Positions 3,349 through 29,637 of a DNA stretch of 37,658 bases are shown piece by piece. Origin of the DNA: Bacillota bacterium. GTDB lineage: Bacteria; Bacillota; UBA4882; UBA8346. Both the position numbers and the translations under genes were made by a program. The stretch lies in the NCBI GenBank assembly GCA_012728785.1, contig JAAYEK010000281.1, forward strand, positions 1 through 37,658, written 5' to 3'. Below the pieces are notes generated by a model. That model had not been told where the DNA came from. It did not search any database and worked only from the letters and a program-made list of their open reading frames with translations. The stretch's first letter is position 1. Each line of letters opens with the position of its first letter.

Positions 3349-3442
3349 AAGATTTATTAGCGTCAATTCGCGTGTATTAACGGTTAAATAGTTTAATCGG
3401 CATTTAGGATGTACATTTCTGATATGGAAAGATGTGATAACG

Positions 3443-4639
3443 ATGGTTCAAAATAAGAACGTAGTACTGGGAATAACCGGCGGGATTGCTGCCTATAAGG
3501 CATGCGATATTGTAAGCGACCTTAAGAAACTTAACGCCAACGTCGATGTGATCATGACCAAAGCAGCGACGGAATTTATTACGCCCCTGACCTTGCAAAG
3601 CATCAGCCAAAATAAAGTAGCGGTCGATATGTTTCAAACTCTCGGAAACTGGGAAATTGGACATATTTCTCTGGCAAAAAAAGCCGATTTATTAGTTATC
3701 GCTCCAGCAACCGCCGACATTATCGGTAAACTAGCCAATGGAATCGCCGACGATCTGCTTTCCACCACCGTAATGGCTACCAAGGCCCCGGTTTTAATAG
3801 CTCCGGCGATGAACAGCAATATGTATACCAATTCAATTGTCCAAGCGAATATTGAAAAATTGAAAAACAACGGTTTCTGGTTTATTACACCGGAAATCGG
3901 CAGGTTGGCCTGTGGGGATATTGGTGAGGGTAAACTGGCGTCGGTTGAAACGATTGTAAATCAGATAACCAAATTGCTAACCCGGGCTAAAGATTTTTCC
4001 GGGAGAAAGATCCTGATTACAGCAGGTCCGACTCAAGAGGCCATCGATCCGGTACGTTTCATTTCCAATCGCTCTTCCGGCAAAATGGGCTACGCACTGG
4101 CCGAAGCAGCAGTAGAACGTGGCGCCGATGTGACCCTAATTTCCGGACCGGTCGCTTTAACAAGACCTAATGGGTTGGATTCGTTTATCCCGGTCGAATC
4201 CGCTATCGAGATGCGCCAAGCGGTCATGGATTGTTTTCAGGAGATGGAGATCATCATTATGACTGCGGCGGTAGGTGATTTTAAACCCAAACGAAAGTCG
4301 GCTGAAAAAATAAAAAAGAATGACAGCGGTTTAACGATTGAGTTGGAGAAAACCCCCGATATCCTGGCGGAACTTGGGAAACTAAAGGGAGATCGCATTT
4401 TAGTCGGCTTCGCCGCCGAAACTCAAAATCTTTTGGAATATGCCGGTGAAAAGCTAGTCCAAAAGAATCTAGACTTCATTGTAGCCAATGATCTGACCCA
4501 GGAGGGCGCGGGTTTCGGCGTATCAACCAATATTGTTAAGATCATTGACTGCTCAGGCAATGTAGAGGAGTTTCCTTTAATGAGCAAATTGGAGTTGGGC
4601 AAAATAATTCTTGATCGGATCAAGGGTTTATTAATATGA
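3443..4639 (+). CDS. coaBC: Bifunctional phosphopantothenoylcysteine decarboxylase / phosphopantothenate-cysteine ligase
   Basis: Catalyses two consecutive steps of coenzyme A synthesis: joining cysteine to 4'-phosphopantothenate (CoaB) and decarboxylating the product to phosphopantetheine (CoaC, FMN-dependent). CoaC occupies about residues 1-185: the opening VLGITGGIAAYKACD, the active-site His in WEIGHISLAKKADL, PAMNSNMY, and the reactive Cys in RLACGDIGEGKLA. CoaB follows from about 187, with ILITAGPTQEAIDPVRFISN, then RSSGKMG, AAVGDFKP and the KIKK lysines. The 398-residue length is normal. I chose ATG 3443 over GTG 3434 because the protein then begins MVQNKNVVLG as the family does and leaves room for the GGAAAG site at 3426-3431. 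A type II pantothenate kinase encoded at 23.3-24.2 kb would supply the preceding step. Confidence 0.96.
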   Translation: MVQNKNVVLGITGGIAAYKACDIVSDLKKLNANVDVIMTKAATEFITPLTLQSISQNKVAVDMFQTLGNWEIGHISLAKKADLLVIAPATADIIGKLANGIADDLLSTTVMATKAPVLIAPAMNSNMYTNSIVQANIEKLKNNGFWFITPEIGRLACGDIGEGKLASVETIVNQITKLLTRAKDFSGRKILITAGPTQEAIDPVRFISNRSSGKMGYALAEAAVERGADVTLISGPVALTRPNGLDSFIPVESAIEMRQAVMDCFQEMEIIIMTAAVGDFKPKRKSAEKIKKNDSGLTIELEKTPDILAELGKLKGDRILVGFAAETQNLLEYAGEKLVQKNLDFIVANDLTQEGAGFGVSTNIVKIIDCSGNVEEFPLMSKLELGKIILDRIKGLLI

Positions 4640-8094: not shown

Positions 8095-8156
8095 ATTAGC
8101 TCTTTGGGCATAATTAAGAGTGGATTAGTAAAGACCTATTACTCTTCGATATGAGA

Positions 8157-8185
8157 AAGACCCCGGCTTTGTCGGGGTCTTCGGT
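8157..8185. terminator. Bidirectional terminator between phoU and the cold-shock gene
   Basis: AAGACCCCG (8157-8165), 7-base loop, CGGGGTCTT (8173-8181): a perfect 9-bp GC-rich stem between two converging genes. T-rich sequence follows on the plus strand only weakly. Confidence 0.7.
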
Positions 8186-8197
8186 TTGATTCGAAAT

Positions 8198-8395
8198 TTA
8201 TGCTTTTGTAACGTTCGCGGCTTGTGGGCCTCGATCGCCTTGAACAATGTCGAATTCAACCATTTGACCTTCTTCTAGGGATTTGTAACCGTCCATCTGG
8301 ATAGCAGAAAAGTGTACGAACACATCGTCGCCGCCATCTCTTTCGATGAAACCAAAACCTTTGTCCGAGTTAAACCATTTGACCTTACCTTGCAT
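8198..8395 (-). CDS. Cold-shock domain protein
   Basis: A 65-residue CspA-type OB-fold protein that binds single-stranded RNA and DNA. Both RNA-binding motifs are present, KGFGFI (RNP1) and VFVHFSAI (RNP2), starting [15 protein letters not shown] and ending [10 protein letters not shown], the usual length for the family. The start at 8395 follows TTAGGAGGAA; a longer in-frame version to 8446 would run into the leader hairpin and is rejected. A strong promoter lies at 8456-8484, giving a leader of about 55 bases that holds a 7-bp inverted repeat. Such proteins act as RNA chaperones in cold or general stress. Confidence 0.97.
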
Positions 8396-8418
8396 ATGTA
8401 TTCCTCCTAACAAAATCC

Positions 8419-8446
8419 GTGACTGCAGTGATTTGTTCCCAGTCAC
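8419..8446 (-). other. Inverted repeat in the cold-shock gene leader
   Basis: GTGACTG (8419-8425) and CAGTCAC (8440-8446) are perfect complements 14 bases apart, in the 5' leader just upstream of the ribosome-binding site. An overlapping ACTGCAGT palindrome offers an alternative fold. Cold-shock mRNAs often have thermo-responsive leaders, so a structural switch is possible but unproven. Confidence 0.45.
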
Positions 8447-8455
8447 ATGAAATGA

Positions 8456-8484
8456 ATTATAACATAGTATTGTAGAACCGTCAA
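8456..8484 (-). promoter_or_regulatory. Strong sigma-A promoter of the cold-shock gene
   Basis: On the minus strand TTGACG (8479-8484), 17 bases, perfect TATAAT (8456-8461). It is the closest match to consensus in the window, as expected for a highly expressed csp gene. Confidence 0.85.
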
Positions 8485-8559
8485 ACCAAAAAATCTAGTT
8501 AAACTAACAAAATTTTCAAAATGATATTTGAGTTGGAAATAGATCCCAACATTGATCAT

Positions 8560-23338: not shown

Positions 23339-24184
23339 TTAGACCGGAATCTCAGTAAAAGGGATGCCCTGGACAAAAGAAATTGCCGCGCCGGTAGCGG
23401 TTGCAAACTCGGCATTGGGCGGAGTCACAAAATTGACATTATACAACTGGTTAAGCTGAGTAAATATCTCTCCGGCTTGCGGCACATTAGTAAGGTTTCC
23501 GGTCAGCACTATATCTCGGGTATGGTCGATTCTGGTAGCGAACACCGCCAGCATTCCGATGGTTTGGAAAACAAGGTTGATTATTCCCAATGCTACATCA
23601 GCATTGGTTGCCAAATCACTCAATTTTCCAAAGTTTGAGGCGGTGGTCTCCGGTGGGAGGTTGACTAGAACGTCATGACTGATATCACTGATCGCCAGAT
23701 CAATATGGGCCAGGCTGCCACCTTGGGCAGTCCCAATCAAGTCGTTAAATTCTCTGACATTGAGCATTCGGTTGGAGAGACCGAGCAAAGTTCCGCCACC
23801 GATACCGGTACCCCCAATATGGCGGACCCCGGTCTGGTCCGCTTTGACAAAGGCTGTACCAGTGCCCATGCTTACAATAATGGCATTGGTCAGCCCACTG
23901 AGGAACAGTCCTCCGGCTCCAATGGACCGAAACTCATCAATTTTACCGGTGGGTATACCATAGAGCTTAGCTGTAATATAGGAAGAACCTACTCCAGTTA
24001 CCATGATCCGCTCAATATCCGATAGATCCAAATTATTGGCACTCAGGAATTTACCAAAAGCCCCGTAAACTGAGGCAATCGGATCAGTGGCTCGGACTAA
24101 TAAAGGGCTAAAGATATTCGAATTATCAAAGCCGATAATTTTGGTAATGCTTCCTCCAATATCAATTCCGATGATTTTACCCAT
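23339..24184 (-). CDS. coaW: Type II pantothenate kinase
   Basis: A 281-residue sugar-kinase/Hsp70-fold enzyme that phosphorylates pantothenate, the first step toward coenzyme A. The phosphate-1 loop is IGIDIGGSITKII at 4-16; the catalytic Glu region follows with VTGVGSSY; then SMGTGTAFVKAD (phosphate-2), RHIGGTGIGGGTLLGLS near 121-137, and the adenosine motif IVLTGNLTN near 225-233. This is the Staphylococcus/eukaryotic-like type II form, usually insensitive to CoA feedback. ATG 24184 is preceded by GGAGG placed within the last codons of the transporter gene, which ends one base upstream, so the two are translationally coupled. With coaBC at 3.4 kb it covers adjacent steps of the pathway. 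Confidence 0.92.
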   Translation of the reverse strand: MGKIIGIDIGGSITKIIGFDNSNIFSPLLVRATDPIASVYGAFGKFLSANNLDLSDIERIMVTGVGSSYITAKLYGIPTGKIDEFRSIGAGGLFLSGLTNAIIVSMGTGTAFVKADQTGVRHIGGTGIGGGTLLGLSNRMLNVREFNDLIGTAQGGSLAHIDLAISDISHDVLVNLPPETTASNFGKLSDLATNADVALGIINLVFQTIGMLAVFATRIDHTRDIVLTGNLTNVPQAGEIFTQLNQLYNVNFVTPPNAEFATATGAAISFVQGIPFTEIPV

Positions 24185-24185
24185 T

Positions 24186-25841
24186 TCAACCTCCGGTAAT
24201 CATTTTGAAAATAGCGATGCCGACTCCAGTGATGCCTTCGCCGCCCAACAATCCTGAAGCAGCAATATTTCCGTTTCCTGCTGAGTTCGGACGGAGCCGG
24301 TCTGTGATAAATCTAATCGCACCGCCGAGAAACATTGGGGCTGATATTTCAAAAGGCAAATAAATCCCGATTCCTAGGGTCATAACAGGAACTTTAAGTA
24401 GATATAACAAAGCCCCGATTGCCACGGCAATTCCAAAAACCACCGGAGCCCCGACACCGTTAATCATTTGGCTGACCATAAATGCTTGGCCTGCCGGCAA
24501 GCCTTTGTCCGGGCCGACGCCGCCGAATTGCCCAACCACTGCGAACATTGCCAGAGCAGCGACTACGGCTCCGGCCAAACCGCCGACTATTTGTGAGATC
24601 ATCTGGGCTACCGGATTGGTCCCCAACATCCTTCCGGCTTTATAGTCAAAGAGCATATCTCCGGAGTAGCCGCAGGCGACAGCGACGGCGGCAGCGACCA
24701 TAAAGGAAGTGAAGGCGTCGACCGGCACGATCAAACGGACAGCGAGTAAGACAATGATCCCGAAGATTTCCATGGGGTTGATTCCGGTCTCGCCGCTGAT
24801 GATTGCGGCCATTGCCGAAGCAAGTAGGACTCCGAGCATTAACAGAAAAGAGGGGAGAGGGCCGATCCCGCAAGCGACCGTGATAACGAAGGCAACGGCT
24901 GTGCCAAGCAAGGCCCAAACCCTTACCTTTTTCTTATTAGCTTTGGGAACATCCACCAACGCCTCGTTTTTAACAACCGTGTTATTTTTCTTTTTTAATA
25001 ATGAAACGAAATAGGCCAGTAGAACACCGATACCGGTCCCAACCATCAAGCCAATGCCCAGGGTGTTTTTGAAACTGACCGCCTCTTGGACGGTGGGGAA
25101 TAAGTTTAAGGCGGTTCCCAGCGGAATTATTATCACATATGAAAGTAAAGCCCCAATAAACCAGACTCCGGTATAGAGGGTTCCAATGATATATCCGATT
25201 CCGACAGCCATGGGCGACATCCAGAAGCCCAGTTGAAAATTTTTGGCATAGAGCCATTTGGAGCTGATTGCCGCTGGAATCCAGCCCAAATTGTCCCGTA
25301 AGAAAGTGAAGATCGCCGAAAGACCCATTGTTCCAAAGAGTAGTGCTGATTTTTTACCGCCGGCGTCGCCGACAACGATTGTATCGGCAGCCGCTTTGCC
25401 AATGGGGAACGGTAAAGCTTCATGGTCGATAAAACGTTGGCGGAGAAACCAAGTTAGGACACTTCCTAAGATTACGCCGGCCAAAGCGATGCCGATAACC
25501 TGCCAGAGCCTGCCGGTGGTATATGCCTGGCCTTCCCAAATGCCATTAATCCAAAGACCGGGCAAGGTGAAAGCCAAACCTCCGGCAACCATGGCCCCGG
25601 CCGACATTGCGGTCTGGGTGATATTGATTTCATTCAAGGTTGTTTTACCGAGAGCTTTTAAAAGCGCCATTGACAGTACAGCCACAAAAATGGTGGGCCA
25701 GGGGAGTGCGCTCATCCGAAGCGCTACATACATTGAACTGGCGGTGATTAAGATTGAGCCGAGGGCCCCAAAGATAAGGCTGCGTAATGATAATTGCATA
25801 ATTCCAAATAAACTGCGTTCTTGATTAGTTTGATCCGACAT
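24186..25841 (-). CDS. OPT family transporter
   Basis: A 551-residue polytopic membrane protein with about 14 helices, matching the oligopeptide transporter superfamily (PF03169). Recognisable parts: LRSLIFGALGSILITASSMY near 18-37, TQTAMSAGAMVAGGLAFTLP, HEALPFPIGKAAADTI near 146-161, GETGINPMEIFGI near 350-362, CGYSGDMLFDYKAG and AAMFLGG-like SAPMFLGGAIRF. Members move peptides, or metal-chelate complexes in the YSL branch; the substrate here is open. The gene is first in a two-gene operon with type II pantothenate kinase, behind a 184-base leader that contains a terminator and a competing stem. Its -35/-10 promoter starts the leader precisely at the first stem. Confidence 0.9.
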   Translation of the reverse strand: MSDQTNQERSLFGIMQLSLRSLIFGALGSILITASSMYVALRMSALPWPTIFVAVLSMALLKALGKTTLNEINITQTAMSAGAMVAGGLAFTLPGLWINGIWEGQAYTTGRLWQVIGIALAGVILGSVLTWFLRQRFIDHEALPFPIGKAAADTIVVGDAGGKKSALLFGTMGLSAIFTFLRDNLGWIPAAISSKWLYAKNFQLGFWMSPMAVGIGYIIGTLYTGVWFIGALLSYVIIIPLGTALNLFPTVQEAVSFKNTLGIGLMVGTGIGVLLAYFVSLLKKKNNTVVKNEALVDVPKANKKKVRVWALLGTAVAFVITVACGIGPLPSFLLMLGVLLASAMAAIISGETGINPMEIFGIIVLLAVRLIVPVDAFTSFMVAAAVAVACGYSGDMLFDYKAGRMLGTNPVAQMISQIVGGLAGAVVAALAMFAVVGQFGGVGPDKGLPAGQAFMVSQMINGVGAPVVFGIAVAIGALLYLLKVPVMTLGIGIYLPFEISAPMFLGGAIRFITDRLRPNSAGNGNIAASGLLGGEGITGVGIAIFKMITGG

Positions 25842-25893: not shown

Positions 25894-25920
25894 AAAAAAA
25901 CCTTCCTGGAGACAGGAAGG
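25894..25920 (-). terminator. Leader terminator upstream of the OPT gene
   Basis: On the minus strand CCTTCCTG (25920-25913), loop TCTC, CAGGAAGG (25908-25901), then TTTTTTT (25900-25894). It is a perfect 8-bp stem lying between the promoter and the OPT ribosome-binding site, so it must be read through for expression. Confidence 0.9.
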
Positions 25921-26025
25921 CGTAATAATACTAAGCTATCCTCCGTCTCAGTCTAACGATCTAAGCGGTGTTTTACTGATCCGACAAACAATCGCGCGCT
26001 AGTGCGGCTCCGAGGATACCGCCTT
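25894..26025 (-). ncRNA. Candidate riboswitch/attenuator leader RNA of the OPT-pantothenate kinase operon
   Basis: Read on the minus strand, the RNA should start near 26025. AAGGCG (26025-26020) can pair with CGCCTT (25922-25917) to form a closing stem P1. Inside it TATCCTC pairs with GAGGATA (about 26017-26011 with 25942-25936), and a further hairpin is GCG/TGTTT against AAACA/CGC. The 3' strand of P1 overlaps by four bases the 5' arm of a perfect terminator (CCTTCCTG/CAGGAAGG plus seven T), so the two folds exclude each other. A second CGCCTT lies past the T run (25892-25887) as a further competitor. I compared it by eye with TPP, SAM, T-box, Mn, ydaO, guanidine, lysine, FMN and cobalamin motifs and saw no match. 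The class is unassigned. Confidence 0.6.
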
Positions 26026-26031
26026 GAAAAT

Positions 26032-26060
26032 ACTATAGCATTGGATGTTTATTTAGGCAA
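26032..26060 (-). promoter_or_regulatory. Promoter of the leader RNA and OPT-pantothenate kinase operon
   Basis: On the minus strand TTGCCT (26055-26060), 17 bases, TATAGT (26032-26037) with an upstream TG giving an extended -10. The predicted start falls exactly at the first base of stem P1. The -35 box overlaps the tail of a DUF4143 ATPase remnant. Confidence 0.65.
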
Positions 26061-26190: not shown

Positions 26191-26233
26191 CATTTTGGAC
26201 AATTTGTCAATTGTATTTACAATATGTCCAAAT

Positions 26234-26300
26234 AAAATGAGACCCCATATTGGCAATCGTTTAGATAGTATATCCCGATTACCACATGAGGTCTCATTTT
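26234..26300. repeat. 67-bp long hairpin element downstream of the GH30 gene
   Basis: AAAATGAGACC (26234-26244) and GGTCTCATTTT (26290-26300) are perfect complements. Further in, CAT pairs with ATG, and TGGCAATCG pairs with CGATTACCA with one G-T wobble, leaving a loop of about 16 bases. Altogether about 23 of 25 positions pair. It follows the GH30 stop by about 35 bases and could act as its terminator, although a stem this long is more typical of a small repeat element. Confidence 0.7.
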
Positions 26301-26334
26301 TAGCTGGATTCCAGATCAATTTATCCTACGGGAG

Positions 26335-29064
26335 TTATTCGCCAACAACTTCCCGAATCACTACATTATCGACATAATACTCAACTTCCGGCCCCGGACC
26401 TTCGGTATATAACTGGAGCGCTTTCAGGGTACCGGTCACGTTAAGTTCGTAGATACCGCTAATACAGGTCCATTCTTCATCGGATATGGTTTTGGATTCT
26501 ACCCAGGAGTAATTGTCGCCCCGGTCATCGGTTCGCTTAATGCTGACCCGTCCGGCATCGCTGACTTTGTTCTTCAGTTTAATCCAGGCGGAAACTTCAT
26601 ATTTACCGGGTTTCATCACGGAGATAAGGTCCTGGGCGACACCCTGCCAAGTTTCAGTCCGGCCGGTGATCAGAACCGAGTTGGTCCCGGTATGGGAAGT
26701 TTCATCGGTGACCGTTATTTTGCTGGGGCCACCGAAGTTGAACCAACCGTCGGCTCCAGTCTCAAACCCCGGATTGACCAGTAATGAAGGCTCGCTGCCC
26801 CAACATAGATTACCATCGATATAACCGGCTACCCTTTGATAATCAACTAATCCTTCTTGCTCGGGATTGAAGGAGAAGTCGTTATCCTGGCGGTAAGCTC
26901 CGCTGGTGGAGATCTTCGCGCGAAGGTTCGCTTCTTGACCCGGTTCCAGTGTTCCGGCGCTATCGTTGAATCCGATTTCCAAGTAATAATTGGCTTGGGG
27001 CGTAACAGATTTCATTTTAACCAAAGCTCCGCTCATGGCCGAACTTGGGATGGAACCTATGCTAAACCCGAATTGTTGTCCAACTTGGGAATCAATCGTA
27101 TAGTAATAACGGATCTTAACTTTCTCCAGATTGACCGGAACGGTCCCGGTGTTGATAATTTTAAAGTGGGGGGTGATTTTATCGGTTTTGGCATCAATCG
27201 TCCCATTTTCCATTTGAAGCTTTATTTTACCCGCCGGGGGTTTGATGGGGGCCTTAAACTCCAACCAGTTCACCTTACAACTGGAGCCTTCATCCCAAGG
27301 GGTAAATACTAGATAAAAACCGTTAACGCCTCTAACCTTTTGCATAGGGATGGATACTGTTTCCCAAAGAGTATTCTTCCAGGGGGCGGGTTTTTTGGCC
27401 GCTGCCGTAAAAGAATGTCTCCCAATCACTGTGCCCAGGGTTGGGCTGCCCAGCTTCAGTTCCAGTTTGCCCCGACCGGAAACGGCGACTCTCAGGTCGC
27501 AGGTGGCGGGGCCGTTATAGAAGTTATAATTTTGATAGGAGGCGAAAGCGCCTTTGTTTATAAATACTGCTGTTGAACCGCCTTCAACGCAAGGTTCCAA
27601 TTTCACACCGGATTGTTCGCCAAAACTCTCGGCTTCAATGGGCGCGAGAAGTTCTTTGAAGCTTAGCTCTCCGGGAAGTTCATTTTCGGCTGCTACAAAG
27701 GTGGTGACGGTTTTTGGCATTAGCGTTACGTTGAATGAACCTTTAGAAACCGGGATTTTATTCAATTTGGACAGGTTTTCCTTATCCGAAGTCCGGTAGG
27801 GAATAACTGTTTTGACCTTTGAAAATTTATTCAGTTTAACAGCGACGGCCTGTTCTTTTGTACCGTTGTTAATAGCCACAATAGCGAATTTGCCACTGGC
27901 GTTATCTTTGTATGCCGTCACAAAAACATTGGGGGCCGGATTGGAGTCGGTATTGATCCGGAGATATCCCGGCCTGACGAAACGGCTGTAGTTTCCGATG
28001 GTATAAAGCCGTTTAAAGGTTTGAAAGGTATTAAAAGTCGTATCCAGGTGGACCAGGGTTTCCCCCGGCTTATAAGCGATCAGCCACCAGAAAAGCCAGG
28101 CGTTGACCTCGGTTACAGTCATGTGATCGTGAAGCAGTTTGGCGTATTTGAGGCCATCATCAATACTGCCGTCATTAAAACCGATATTGGAAACCTCGGT
28201 CTGCCAGATGGATTTGTTTTTGCTTTTGGCGACCGGAAACGGTTTTGCCTTAAAATCATAGGCGTGGGTCCCAATTATATCAACACCCTGGCTGGCTTGG
28301 TCATCGTTTAAGGTGTCAAGGGCATAATCTTCACTGAAGTTCATTTCTTCGGGGATGATCACTTTGGCAGTGGCATTATCCCGTTTTAAGGTCGGTGTGA
28401 GGTAGCCTTTGATGAAATCCCGGAACTGAAGGCTAGTCCAAAGGCAAGCAGAATAAGGCGCCGCAAAACCGGGTTCGTTGGCTAGGGAGATAGCATGGAT
28501 ATCGATATTGTGGTGTTCTTTGTAACCCCGGACATAGTTGGATAGGTAATCGGCATAGGCTTGATATTTGTCGGGGCGCAATTCGCCGCCTTTGATGACG
28601 CTGTTATTGGTTTTCATCCAGGCGGGAGGGGACCAGACGGTGCTGACAAACAGATCGCAGCCCCGTTTTTTGGCCTCGTTCATCAGCCAGATCTGGTCTT
28701 CGTCACCGGTCCAGTTCCAAACTCCTTCTTGAGGTTGGATACTGGGTGTGGGCCCGTCGATTTTGTTGCCCCAATCGCCGCCGTCACCGATGATATTACG
28801 GACGATACTTAACCCGATACCGTTGTCTTGGGAAAAGAGTAAATCAAGGATCTGGTCCCGTTCGGTCTCCGGGTATGCCATTAAATTGGCGGCTTGATGA
28901 AAAGCCCCGGAACCGCCGAAACCTTCAATAGTTTGTTTTTCGTTAGTCCAATCTATGTTGCAGACAGGTGGGGCATCCATTGAATGAATTGTCAATAGGG
29001 TTCCCGTGAATAACATTAAAACCAACAAGAAAATAACTTTACTTATAATTGGTTTGGTTTGCAT
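26335..29064 (-). CDS. Secreted multidomain GH30 glycoside hydrolase (xylanase-like) with three carbohydrate-binding modules
   Basis: A 909-residue exported enzyme. Residues 1-28 are a signal peptide. The GH30 catalytic barrel with its side beta-domain fills about 35-460: QTIEGFGGSGAFHQAANL, VSTVWSPPAWMKTN, the acid/base Glu197 in SLANEPGF and the nucleophile Glu290 in IWQTEVSN. The HAYD and WLFWWLI features fit GH30 glucuronoxylanases or related endo-xylanases. A CBM6-like module follows at about 474-605 (APIEAESFGEQSGV), a CBM3-like cellulose-binding module at 612-760 (KIKLQMENGT...IRYYYT), and a CBM4/9/22-like module at 760-905 (LLVNPGFETGADGW). AAGGAG precedes ATG 29064. It has its own promoter and inverted-repeat operator candidate. 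The organism probably degrades plant xylan. Exact substrate specificity is inferred. Confidence 0.92.
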   Translation of the reverse strand: MQTKPIISKVIFLLVLMLFTGTLLTIHSMDAPPVCNIDWTNEKQTIEGFGGSGAFHQAANLMAYPETERDQILDLLFSQDNGIGLSIVRNIIGDGGDWGNKIDGPTPSIQPQEGVWNWTGDEDQIWLMNEAKKRGCDLFVSTVWSPPAWMKTNNSVIKGGELRPDKYQAYADYLSNYVRGYKEHHNIDIHAISLANEPGFAAPYSACLWTSLQFRDFIKGYLTPTLKRDNATAKVIIPEEMNFSEDYALDTLNDDQASQGVDIIGTHAYDFKAKPFPVAKSKNKSIWQTEVSNIGFNDGSIDDGLKYAKLLHDHMTVTEVNAWLFWWLIAYKPGETLVHLDTTFNTFQTFKRLYTIGNYSRFVRPGYLRINTDSNPAPNVFVTAYKDNASGKFAIVAINNGTKEQAVAVKLNKFSKVKTVIPYRTSDKENLSKLNKIPVSKGSFNVTLMPKTVTTFVAAENELPGELSFKELLAPIEAESFGEQSGVKLEPCVEGGSTAVFINKGAFASYQNYNFYNGPATCDLRVAVSGRGKLELKLGSPTLGTVIGRHSFTAAAKKPAPWKNTLWETVSIPMQKVRGVNGFYLVFTPWDEGSSCKVNWLEFKAPIKPPAGKIKLQMENGTIDAKTDKITPHFKIINTGTVPVNLEKVKIRYYYTIDSQVGQQFGFSIGSIPSSAMSGALVKMKSVTPQANYYLEIGFNDSAGTLEPGQEANLRAKISTSGAYRQDNDFSFNPEQEGLVDYQRVAGYIDGNLCWGSEPSLLVNPGFETGADGWFNFGGPSKITVTDETSHTGTNSVLITGRTETWQGVAQDLISVMKPGKYEVSAWIKLKNKVSDAGRVSIKRTDDRGDNYSWVESKTISDEEWTCISGIYELNVTGTLKALQLYTEGPGPEVEYYVDNVVIREVVGE

Positions 29065-29141: not shown

Positions 29142-29273
29142 TTCTTTTGGCACCACAGGCAGCATATTTACTATGCAAGAACCTATTATTTACTATGACA
29201 TGGACAGTCTCCGGAGAAAAACCTAAATTGTTTTGATCTTGCATCAACGGGAAAATAGCAAAAGGTTTTCTCC

Positions 29274-29380
29274 GATTCCCCCGACGATAGAGTGAATACC
29301 CGCGACAAAAGATACAATGCCCGCGAGAGGAGAGTGAATACCCGCGACAAAAGATACAATACCCCCGACGATTCCCCCGA
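29274..29380. repeat. 21-bp tandem minisatellite in the GH30 upstream region
   Basis: Units beginning (G/C)AATNCCC(G/C)CGA recur at 29294, 29315, 29336 and 29357 with an exact 21-base step, with partial units at 29274 and 29370. Two copies of a 30-base block (29289-29318 and 29331-29360) are identical. Because 21 is a multiple of three, several frames stay open and give heptapeptide repeats (GIVSFVA/GIHSPLA on minus, NTRDKRY/NARERRV on plus), which I regard as incidental. Downstream (29381-29590) a GC-rich stretch holds a CCTTCCC/GGGAAGG palindrome (29495-29512) and nothing recognised as a gene. Confidence 0.75.
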
Positions 29381-29637
29381 GTGGGAGAGTAACCAATGCC
29401 TTCGAGGGCCAGATGCTTTTTGGGATCGGAGGCTTAAGGTTACCTGTGTTCCAGGAGGGGACGAAGTTGCGGAGGACAGGAGGTCCGAGAGCAACCTTCC
29501 CACATGGGAAGGGCAAGGGTTAGGTAAAAATGTGGTAAAAAGCATTGTTATTCTGAATACTATGTATTTGACTCCGCACATCGTTTAAGAGGCGGAATAT
29601 GATATCATTAGTTGAAATTTATCGAAGGATGATTGGA

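Follow-up and report, generated by a model that had tools for sequence, protein, structure and literature searches.

The segment at 25894-26060 on the reverse strand of the 37,658-nucleotide stretch of Bacillota DNA analysed here (the window) is the 5' leader of a two-gene OPT-coaW operon, and this leader is a clear copy of the known, ligand-orphan pan RNA, not a new RNA class. We consider it probable (about 0.72) that pan responds to a signal of the CoA pathway and switches this OPT-coaW salvage operon off through a terminator. The pan identity, the covariation, the terminator, the family-wide complementarity of tail and terminator and the repeated pan-OPT-coaW linkage were computed here.

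Identification of the leader as a pan RNA

When all Rfam families were searched with Infernal, the leader matched RF01749 (pan) end to end (model positions 1-92 of 92) with 49.2 bits where the gathering score is 36.2, and this was the sole above-threshold Rfam match in the leader. An earlier note on this DNA had proposed this very search and had taken the leader for an unclassified RNA without a match to common classes; the search returned a known class, and the leader is therefore not new. The broader claim of a structured cis-regulatory leader with a terminator before OPT and coaW holds, and that leader is the pan RNA. The window copy is the only pan in a 99.4% complete genome, and a search for the leader in phages found none. 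Further Rfam matches near the leader, to a miRNA and to the 3' UTR of a pestivirus, were far below their gathering scores and were set aside as chance. The elements of the leader are listed below.

26060-26032, reverse strand: promoter-like site TTGCCT-N17-TATAGT with TG before the -10 (extended -10), 9 of 12 matches
25939-26025, reverse strand: full-length pan RNA motif (Rfam RF01749) with its tandem hairpins
26000-26025, reverse strand: pan hairpin 1, AAGGCGGUAUC-CUCG-GAGCCGCACUA, from the RF01749 alignment and covariation
25943-25968, reverse strand: pan hairpin 2, CCGCUUAGAUC-GUUA-GACUGAGACGG, from the RF01749 alignment and covariation
25940-25944, reverse strand: pan 3' tail GGAGG, putative antiterminator, able to pair with CUUCC in the 5' arm of the terminator
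25922-25917, reverse strand: 3' strand CGCCTT of a 6-bp stem, with the 5' strand AAGGCG at 26025-26020
25921-25900, reverse strand: intrinsic terminator, 9-bp stem and 4-nt loop, then a T run

Each window hairpin has a bulged A at both conserved places, four in all. In the pan passage of the 2010 description (PMC2864571), pan is presented as bulged-A hairpins with two such As each, mostly in tandem and in 5' UTRs, ahead of operons that contain panB, panC or an aspartate decarboxylase gene. The window leader shares the tandem hairpins, the two bulged As in each, the 5' UTR position and the pantothenate/CoA genes, but it precedes OPT and a type II pantothenate kinase and not one of the operons named in that passage; the reported association with panB/panC/panD operons is thus not found at the window locus. 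No report of a pan ligand was found in the literature searched, and CoA is named in a 2022 review as a cofactor that has no known riboswitch (PMC9971707).

The transcript start predicted from promoter spacing, about 26025, falls on the base at which the pan motif begins, which agrees with the earlier placement of a promoter and a start at the 6-bp stem. Promoter-like sites in the scan (6, compared with 5.5 in shuffles) were not above chance. L002 carries near-identical promoter hexamers at the same place, and comparable boxes occur in other pan-OPT leaders. Folding of the leader was only moderately better than that of shuffles (z -1.9, 6/200).

Between this promoter and the end of the upstream GH30/CBM gene (26335-29064, reverse strand), a long imperfect inverted repeat, AAAATGAGACC...GGTCTCATTTTT, at 26231-26302 is probably a terminator. 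Elsewhere in the window, an Rfam cspA thermoregulator match at 8153-8514 (reverse strand) lay barely above its cut-off (81 vs 78 bits), and overlapping open frames on both strands at 29186-29588 contain internal peptide repeats such as SRVFTLLSRALYLLSRVF, which suggests a short tandem repeat.

Covariation of the pan fold in leaders of OPT genes

We aligned 13 pan copies that precede OPT genes, ten of them above the Rfam cut-off (the window, L002, L003, L007, L008, L013, L014, L016, L267 and L268) and three found by pattern below it (L004, L018 and L022). Standard pairs made up 91.2% of the pan structure in the 13 leaders vs 27-46% for slid versions of it. Changes on both sides occurred in 9 of the 21 pan pairs, with a covariation of 0.377 vs 0.03-0.10 when slid, and double-change cells numbered 31 where 13.8 were expected from shuffles (0 of 500). 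All four bulged As were invariant in 13/13 leaders.

A different aptamer fold had been proposed in the earlier note, formed by the 6-bp stem and a 7-bp inner stem, with a leader alignment as its check. Both complements are present, the 6-bp one as listed and the 7-bp one as TATCCTC (26018-26012) with GAGGATA (25943-25937), but the fold they make is not conserved: 3 of its 13 pairs are broken in L002 and 3 of 13 in L008, and it is intact in the window only. It is the pan fold that covaries in the alignment of 13 OPT leaders, while the 6-bp and 7-bp stems lose pairs.

In eight copies (L003, L004, L007, L013, L014, L016, L018 and L022), hairpin 2 is a variant with A-A where window-type motifs have G-C, and this opposition is present in 8/8 copies of the clostridial variant. 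At L015 (3327-3440), the loop of pan hairpin 1 apparently carries an insert of ~80 nt, and no complete pan match was found there.

Small tandem hairpins are unusual for small-molecule aptamers. It is somewhat unlikely, in our estimate, that pan instead binds a protein, with a dimeric CoA- or pantothenate-sensor on the tandem hairpins setting termination of the salvage operon. The simplicity of the tandem bulged-A hairpins speaks for such a sensor, and a possible dimeric protein-binding motif was suggested by the discoverers in the pan passage of their paper (PMC2864571); however, there is no known candidate protein, 151 of the 398 genomes of our phylum sample carry the RNA, and four invariant As within an invariant core fit an aptamer equally. 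For the operon, protein binding would give the same result.

The OPT-coaW operon and its linkage to pan

The genes that bear on the operon are given below; those of the operon itself agree with what the earlier note had read there, an OPT transporter and a type II pantothenate kinase.

24186-25841, reverse strand: OPT family transporter, 551 aa (PF03169, 7.1e-49, 167.4 bits vs 25.8)
23339-24184, reverse strand: coaW, type II pantothenate kinase, 281 aa (NF009842, 259.7 bits, cut-off 234)
3434-4639, forward strand: coaBC (PF02441 and PF04127), a gene of the CoA pathway like coaW

coaW lies directly behind the OPT gene with a 1-nt gap, and its product matches PDB entries of type II pantothenate kinases such as 2ews and 4m7x. 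No sequence match of the OPT protein to a solved structure was found. With 126.6 bits against a trusted cut-off of 182.5 for TIGR00733, the transporter falls outside that named subfamily, and its relatives on plasmids are all below 60% identity.

Among the closest OPT relatives, coaW adjoins OPT at 19 loci, the window included, and the kinase neighbour is of type II at every locus that has one. The coaW-linked OPTs lie within one well-supported part of the OPT tree, and the pan-bearing OPTs that could be placed form a 14-row clade (99/93 support) in which all rows are coaW-linked. Pan stands upstream of OPT-coaW at the window, L002, L003, L004, L007, L008, L013, L014, L016, L018 and L022; at L267 and L268 it stands upstream of OPT, and the sequence read ends before any coaW position. 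In the genomes scanned, OPT relatives that lack coaW had no pan beside them. Close relatives carry this RNA before panB/panC, and four genomes (G001, G007, G012 and G449) have pan on both a panB/panC operon and OPT. OPT-coaW is thus apparently a new, undescribed pan target.

Annotations of OPT families name oligopeptides and metal-nicotianamine. That this OPT is a peptide or metal-chelate transporter which stands beside coaW by chance is nonetheless quite improbable, given that coaW adjacency is conserved at 19 loci and pan occurs at 13 OPT loci, in distant lineages of the tree.

Terminator, tail and switching

The terminator stem described in the earlier note was found, and its 6-bp stem does overlap it, by five bases and not by four. 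The terminator stem is retained in L002 (8/8 scored pairs) and L008 (7/8), and in pan leaders at large a terminator follows shortly after the motif in 115 of 148, at a median gap of 19 nt.

In the window, the first two Gs of the tail GGAGG form the base of hairpin 2. Given this overlap, pairing of the tail with the terminator arm excludes both a complete hairpin 2 and the terminator. The tail-arm pairing is kept in the window, L002 and L008, with a G-U to A-U change. We compared pan leaders with a control set of 331 other terminators from the same loci: CCTTC occurs in 43% of the terminator 5' arms of pan leaders vs 2.4% of controls, and pairing of at least 5 bp between the terminator arm and its own pan tail (GGAGG/GGAAG) occurs in 57% vs 8%. 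Permutation between loci of the hairpin-2 3' strand against the terminator arm gave a weak result (z about -2), because the complement is conserved in sequence; we replaced this test by the comparison with unrelated terminators from these loci, and its result is strong. Pairing of tail and terminator is therefore a candidate for the conserved antiterminator. Such complementarity does not appear in the pan passage of PMC2864571.

Pairing of hairpin 1 with the terminator was also considered as a family-wide antiterminator and was rejected (permutation z 0.3; 10% vs 10%). The 6-bp stem is a window-specific alternative in which the 5' strand of hairpin 1 pairs with the 5' arm of the terminator, and it thereby opposes both hairpin 1 and the terminator. 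The isolated pre-terminator RNA of the window is predicted to fold with the 6-bp and 7-bp stems, and in this predicted fold the hairpin-1 alternative reaches 0.38 vs 0.11 for the tail. On these models either the tail or the hairpin-1 5' strand may be the antiterminator of the window.

These results also bear on the ligand-ON switch of the earlier note, in which formation of P1 (the 6-bp stem) opposes termination in a new, unclassified riboswitch. The stems exist and the predicted fold of the isolated RNA contains them; against this stand the full-length Rfam match, the pairs lost in L002 and L008, a hairpin-1 to terminator pairing that is not enriched family-wide, and the finding of nothing equivalent in leaders without a nearby terminator. 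We regard this reading as highly improbable, and its ligand-ON logic finds no support in a stem that acts on pan hairpin 1 and terminator alike. The pan fold itself can coexist with the terminator, unlike the alternatives, so that the signal-bound state would be OFF. By computation, then, the expression platform and the conserved fold are mutually exclusive through the antiterminator, and pan fold, terminator and OFF would go together, the sign expected for feedback control.

In clostridial pan-OPT leaders (L003, L007, L013, L014, L016, L018 and L022), an ATG lies at Shine-Dalgarno distance after the tail GGAGG and opens a frame of 7-10 codons, such as MKNIKFISS*, MNNFYFVSS* and MNKFNSMSG*, well upstream of OPT. 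No terminator was found within 130 nt in the five of these that were scanned (L003, L007, L013, L014 and L016). Pan possibly controls translation of a leader peptide in these clostridial leaders.

The pan regulon in other genomes

For 145 of the pan loci, to which OPT loci had been added on purpose, up to 4 kb downstream was read. Genes of the panB/C/D/E type follow pan at 114 of the 145, a PanS-like carrier with panC at 6, an ECF S component with coaX at 8, an ECF S component at 3, coaX at 2, OPT with coaW at 5, and nothing recognised at 7. Pan thus stands before unrelated uptake-plus-kinase modules, ECF-S with CoaX and OPT with CoaW, which is our main reason to read OPT-CoaW as a salvage module for CoA precursors. 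A ligand in the form of a CoA-pathway compound, one of the guesses of the earlier note, is plausible on this regulon of panBCDE, PanS-like, ECF-S plus coaX and OPT plus coaW genes, and its other guess, a peptide or metal chelate, is unlikely.

The known vitamin B5 uptake systems are PanF, PanT/PanU (ECF) and PanS (PMC6593275, PMC11487621), and ECF-S and PanS-like carriers are also found behind pan elsewhere. The OPT differs from all of them in transporter family and in being paired with CoaW, not with CoaX or PanC.

At L131, L133, L137, L171 and L209, pan precedes a PanS-like carrier of the bile-acid:sodium symporter family and then panC; judged by gene content, these loci may be pantoate-salvage operons under pan control. 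At L144, L163, L166, L174, L207, L218, L245 and L262, it precedes an ECF S component and coaX, in operons that often also hold BioY or BirA, and dus. Such ECF S plus coaX salvage modules are pan targets absent from the pan passage of the 2010 description. L163 and L261 have an amidohydrolase directly after pan (215-1598 and 211-1609 past the pan start, respectively) with an N-terminal signal-like sequence, in L163 ahead of BirA/ECF-S/coaX; it could be a secreted precursor-releasing enzyme.

Which precursor the operon would salvage

Neither panB nor panC was found in the 99.4% complete window genome, which carries CoaX and CoaBC and gave only below-cut-off matches to PanF. A precursor usable in this genome is therefore pantothenate (vitamin B5) or its thiol form, pantetheine, and with CoaX present, CoaW is not its sole pantothenate kinase. 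Panels of such absences recur in the 19 OPT-coaW genomes: panB and panC are both missing from 10, CoaX from 5, and CoaB, present in 14/14 control genomes, from 9; in G008-G011 and G019, CoaB, CoaX, PanB and PanC are all missing. Since most OPT-coaW genomes are metagenome bins, apparent absences may be gaps; CoaB can also be divergent. PanC is absent from 11/19 OPT-coaW genomes and also from 151/398 (38%) of the phylum sample, so that auxotrophy alone is weak, suggestive evidence.

A cell without CoaB must enter the CoA pathway at pantetheine or later. In yeast, pantetheine enters as its disulfide with glutathione through the OPT-family protein Opt1, and pantetheine is phosphorylated by pantothenate kinases of type I/II and not of type III (PMC12406275). 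Of ~90 organisms predicted to be pantetheine auxotrophs, only 12% carry a B5 transporter of a known kind (PMC6593275), and bacterial pantetheine uptake is poorly understood (PMC12570885; PMC6593275). The window operon resembles the Opt1 route (PMC12406275) in that a carrier of the OPT superfamily would feed CoA precursors to a pantetheine-capable kinase. It differs in that the bacterial OPT is similar at the family level only, with a putative substrate; Opt1 is said to have no orthologues outside yeast, and the partner thiol in anaerobic Firmicutes need not be the glutathione of that route.

Taken together, the CoaB losses, the kinase-type specificity, Opt1 and the transporter-poor auxotrophs favour pantetheine or its mixed disulfide over pantothenate as the putative OPT substrate, at about 55:35 in our judgement. 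We hold it possible, tentatively, that free pantothenate (vitamin B5) enters through the OPT, which would stand in for PanT/PanF, with CoaW as an extra pantothenate kinase. Pan also precedes ECF-S plus coaX modules, and the window genome lacks panB/panC, yet its CoaX and CoaBC suffice for pantothenate use; in contrast, the kinase beside OPT, where there is one, is always type II, genomes without CoaB are unable to use pantothenate, and the fungal OPT carries the pantetheine disulfide.

A bolder proposal, which we consider unlikely, is that pan is the missing riboswitch of the CoA pathway, with a ligand past pantothenate (pantetheine, phosphopantetheine or CoA), and that OPT-CoaW is dedicated to pantetheine (disulfide) salvage. 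It draws on L003 (genome G002) and L007 (genome G006), which seem to lack PanB, PanC and CoaB and would never pass through pantothenate, which points to a ligand past it.

Proposed model for the OPT-coaW operon

We propose that OPT-CoaW is a feedback-controlled pantothenate/pantetheine salvage module; a small-molecule ligand, the OFF direction and the transport substrate are the parts of this model that we infer. With CoA precursors in ample supply, both bulged-A hairpins would be stabilised by a signal, which is most likely a small molecule from the pathway between pantothenate and CoA. The tail and the hairpin-1 5' strand would then be sequestered, the terminator at 25921-25900 would form and the operon would be off. 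At low signal, the GGAGG tail and/or the hairpin-1 5' strand would pair with the terminator 5' arm, and with the terminator blocked, RNA polymerase would read into OPT and coaW. The OPT would then bring in a precursor of CoA for CoaW to phosphorylate; this could be pantothenate, but pantetheine or a mixed disulfide of it is more likely.

The RNA itself is ordinary, and the interest lies in its target genes. Described in 2010, pan is still a candidate for which no ligand has been reported. The OPT-coaW target narrows the possible ligands, as it puts pan on a salvage pair even in genomes seemingly unable to make or use pantothenate. The pan-OPT leaders, including those of cultured Ruminiclostridium species, are well-defined test RNAs. 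The OPT clade is a concrete candidate for the poorly understood uptake of pantetheine in bacteria, and if this is true, OPT-CoaW would supply the uptake route described as missing from pantetheine auxotrophs.
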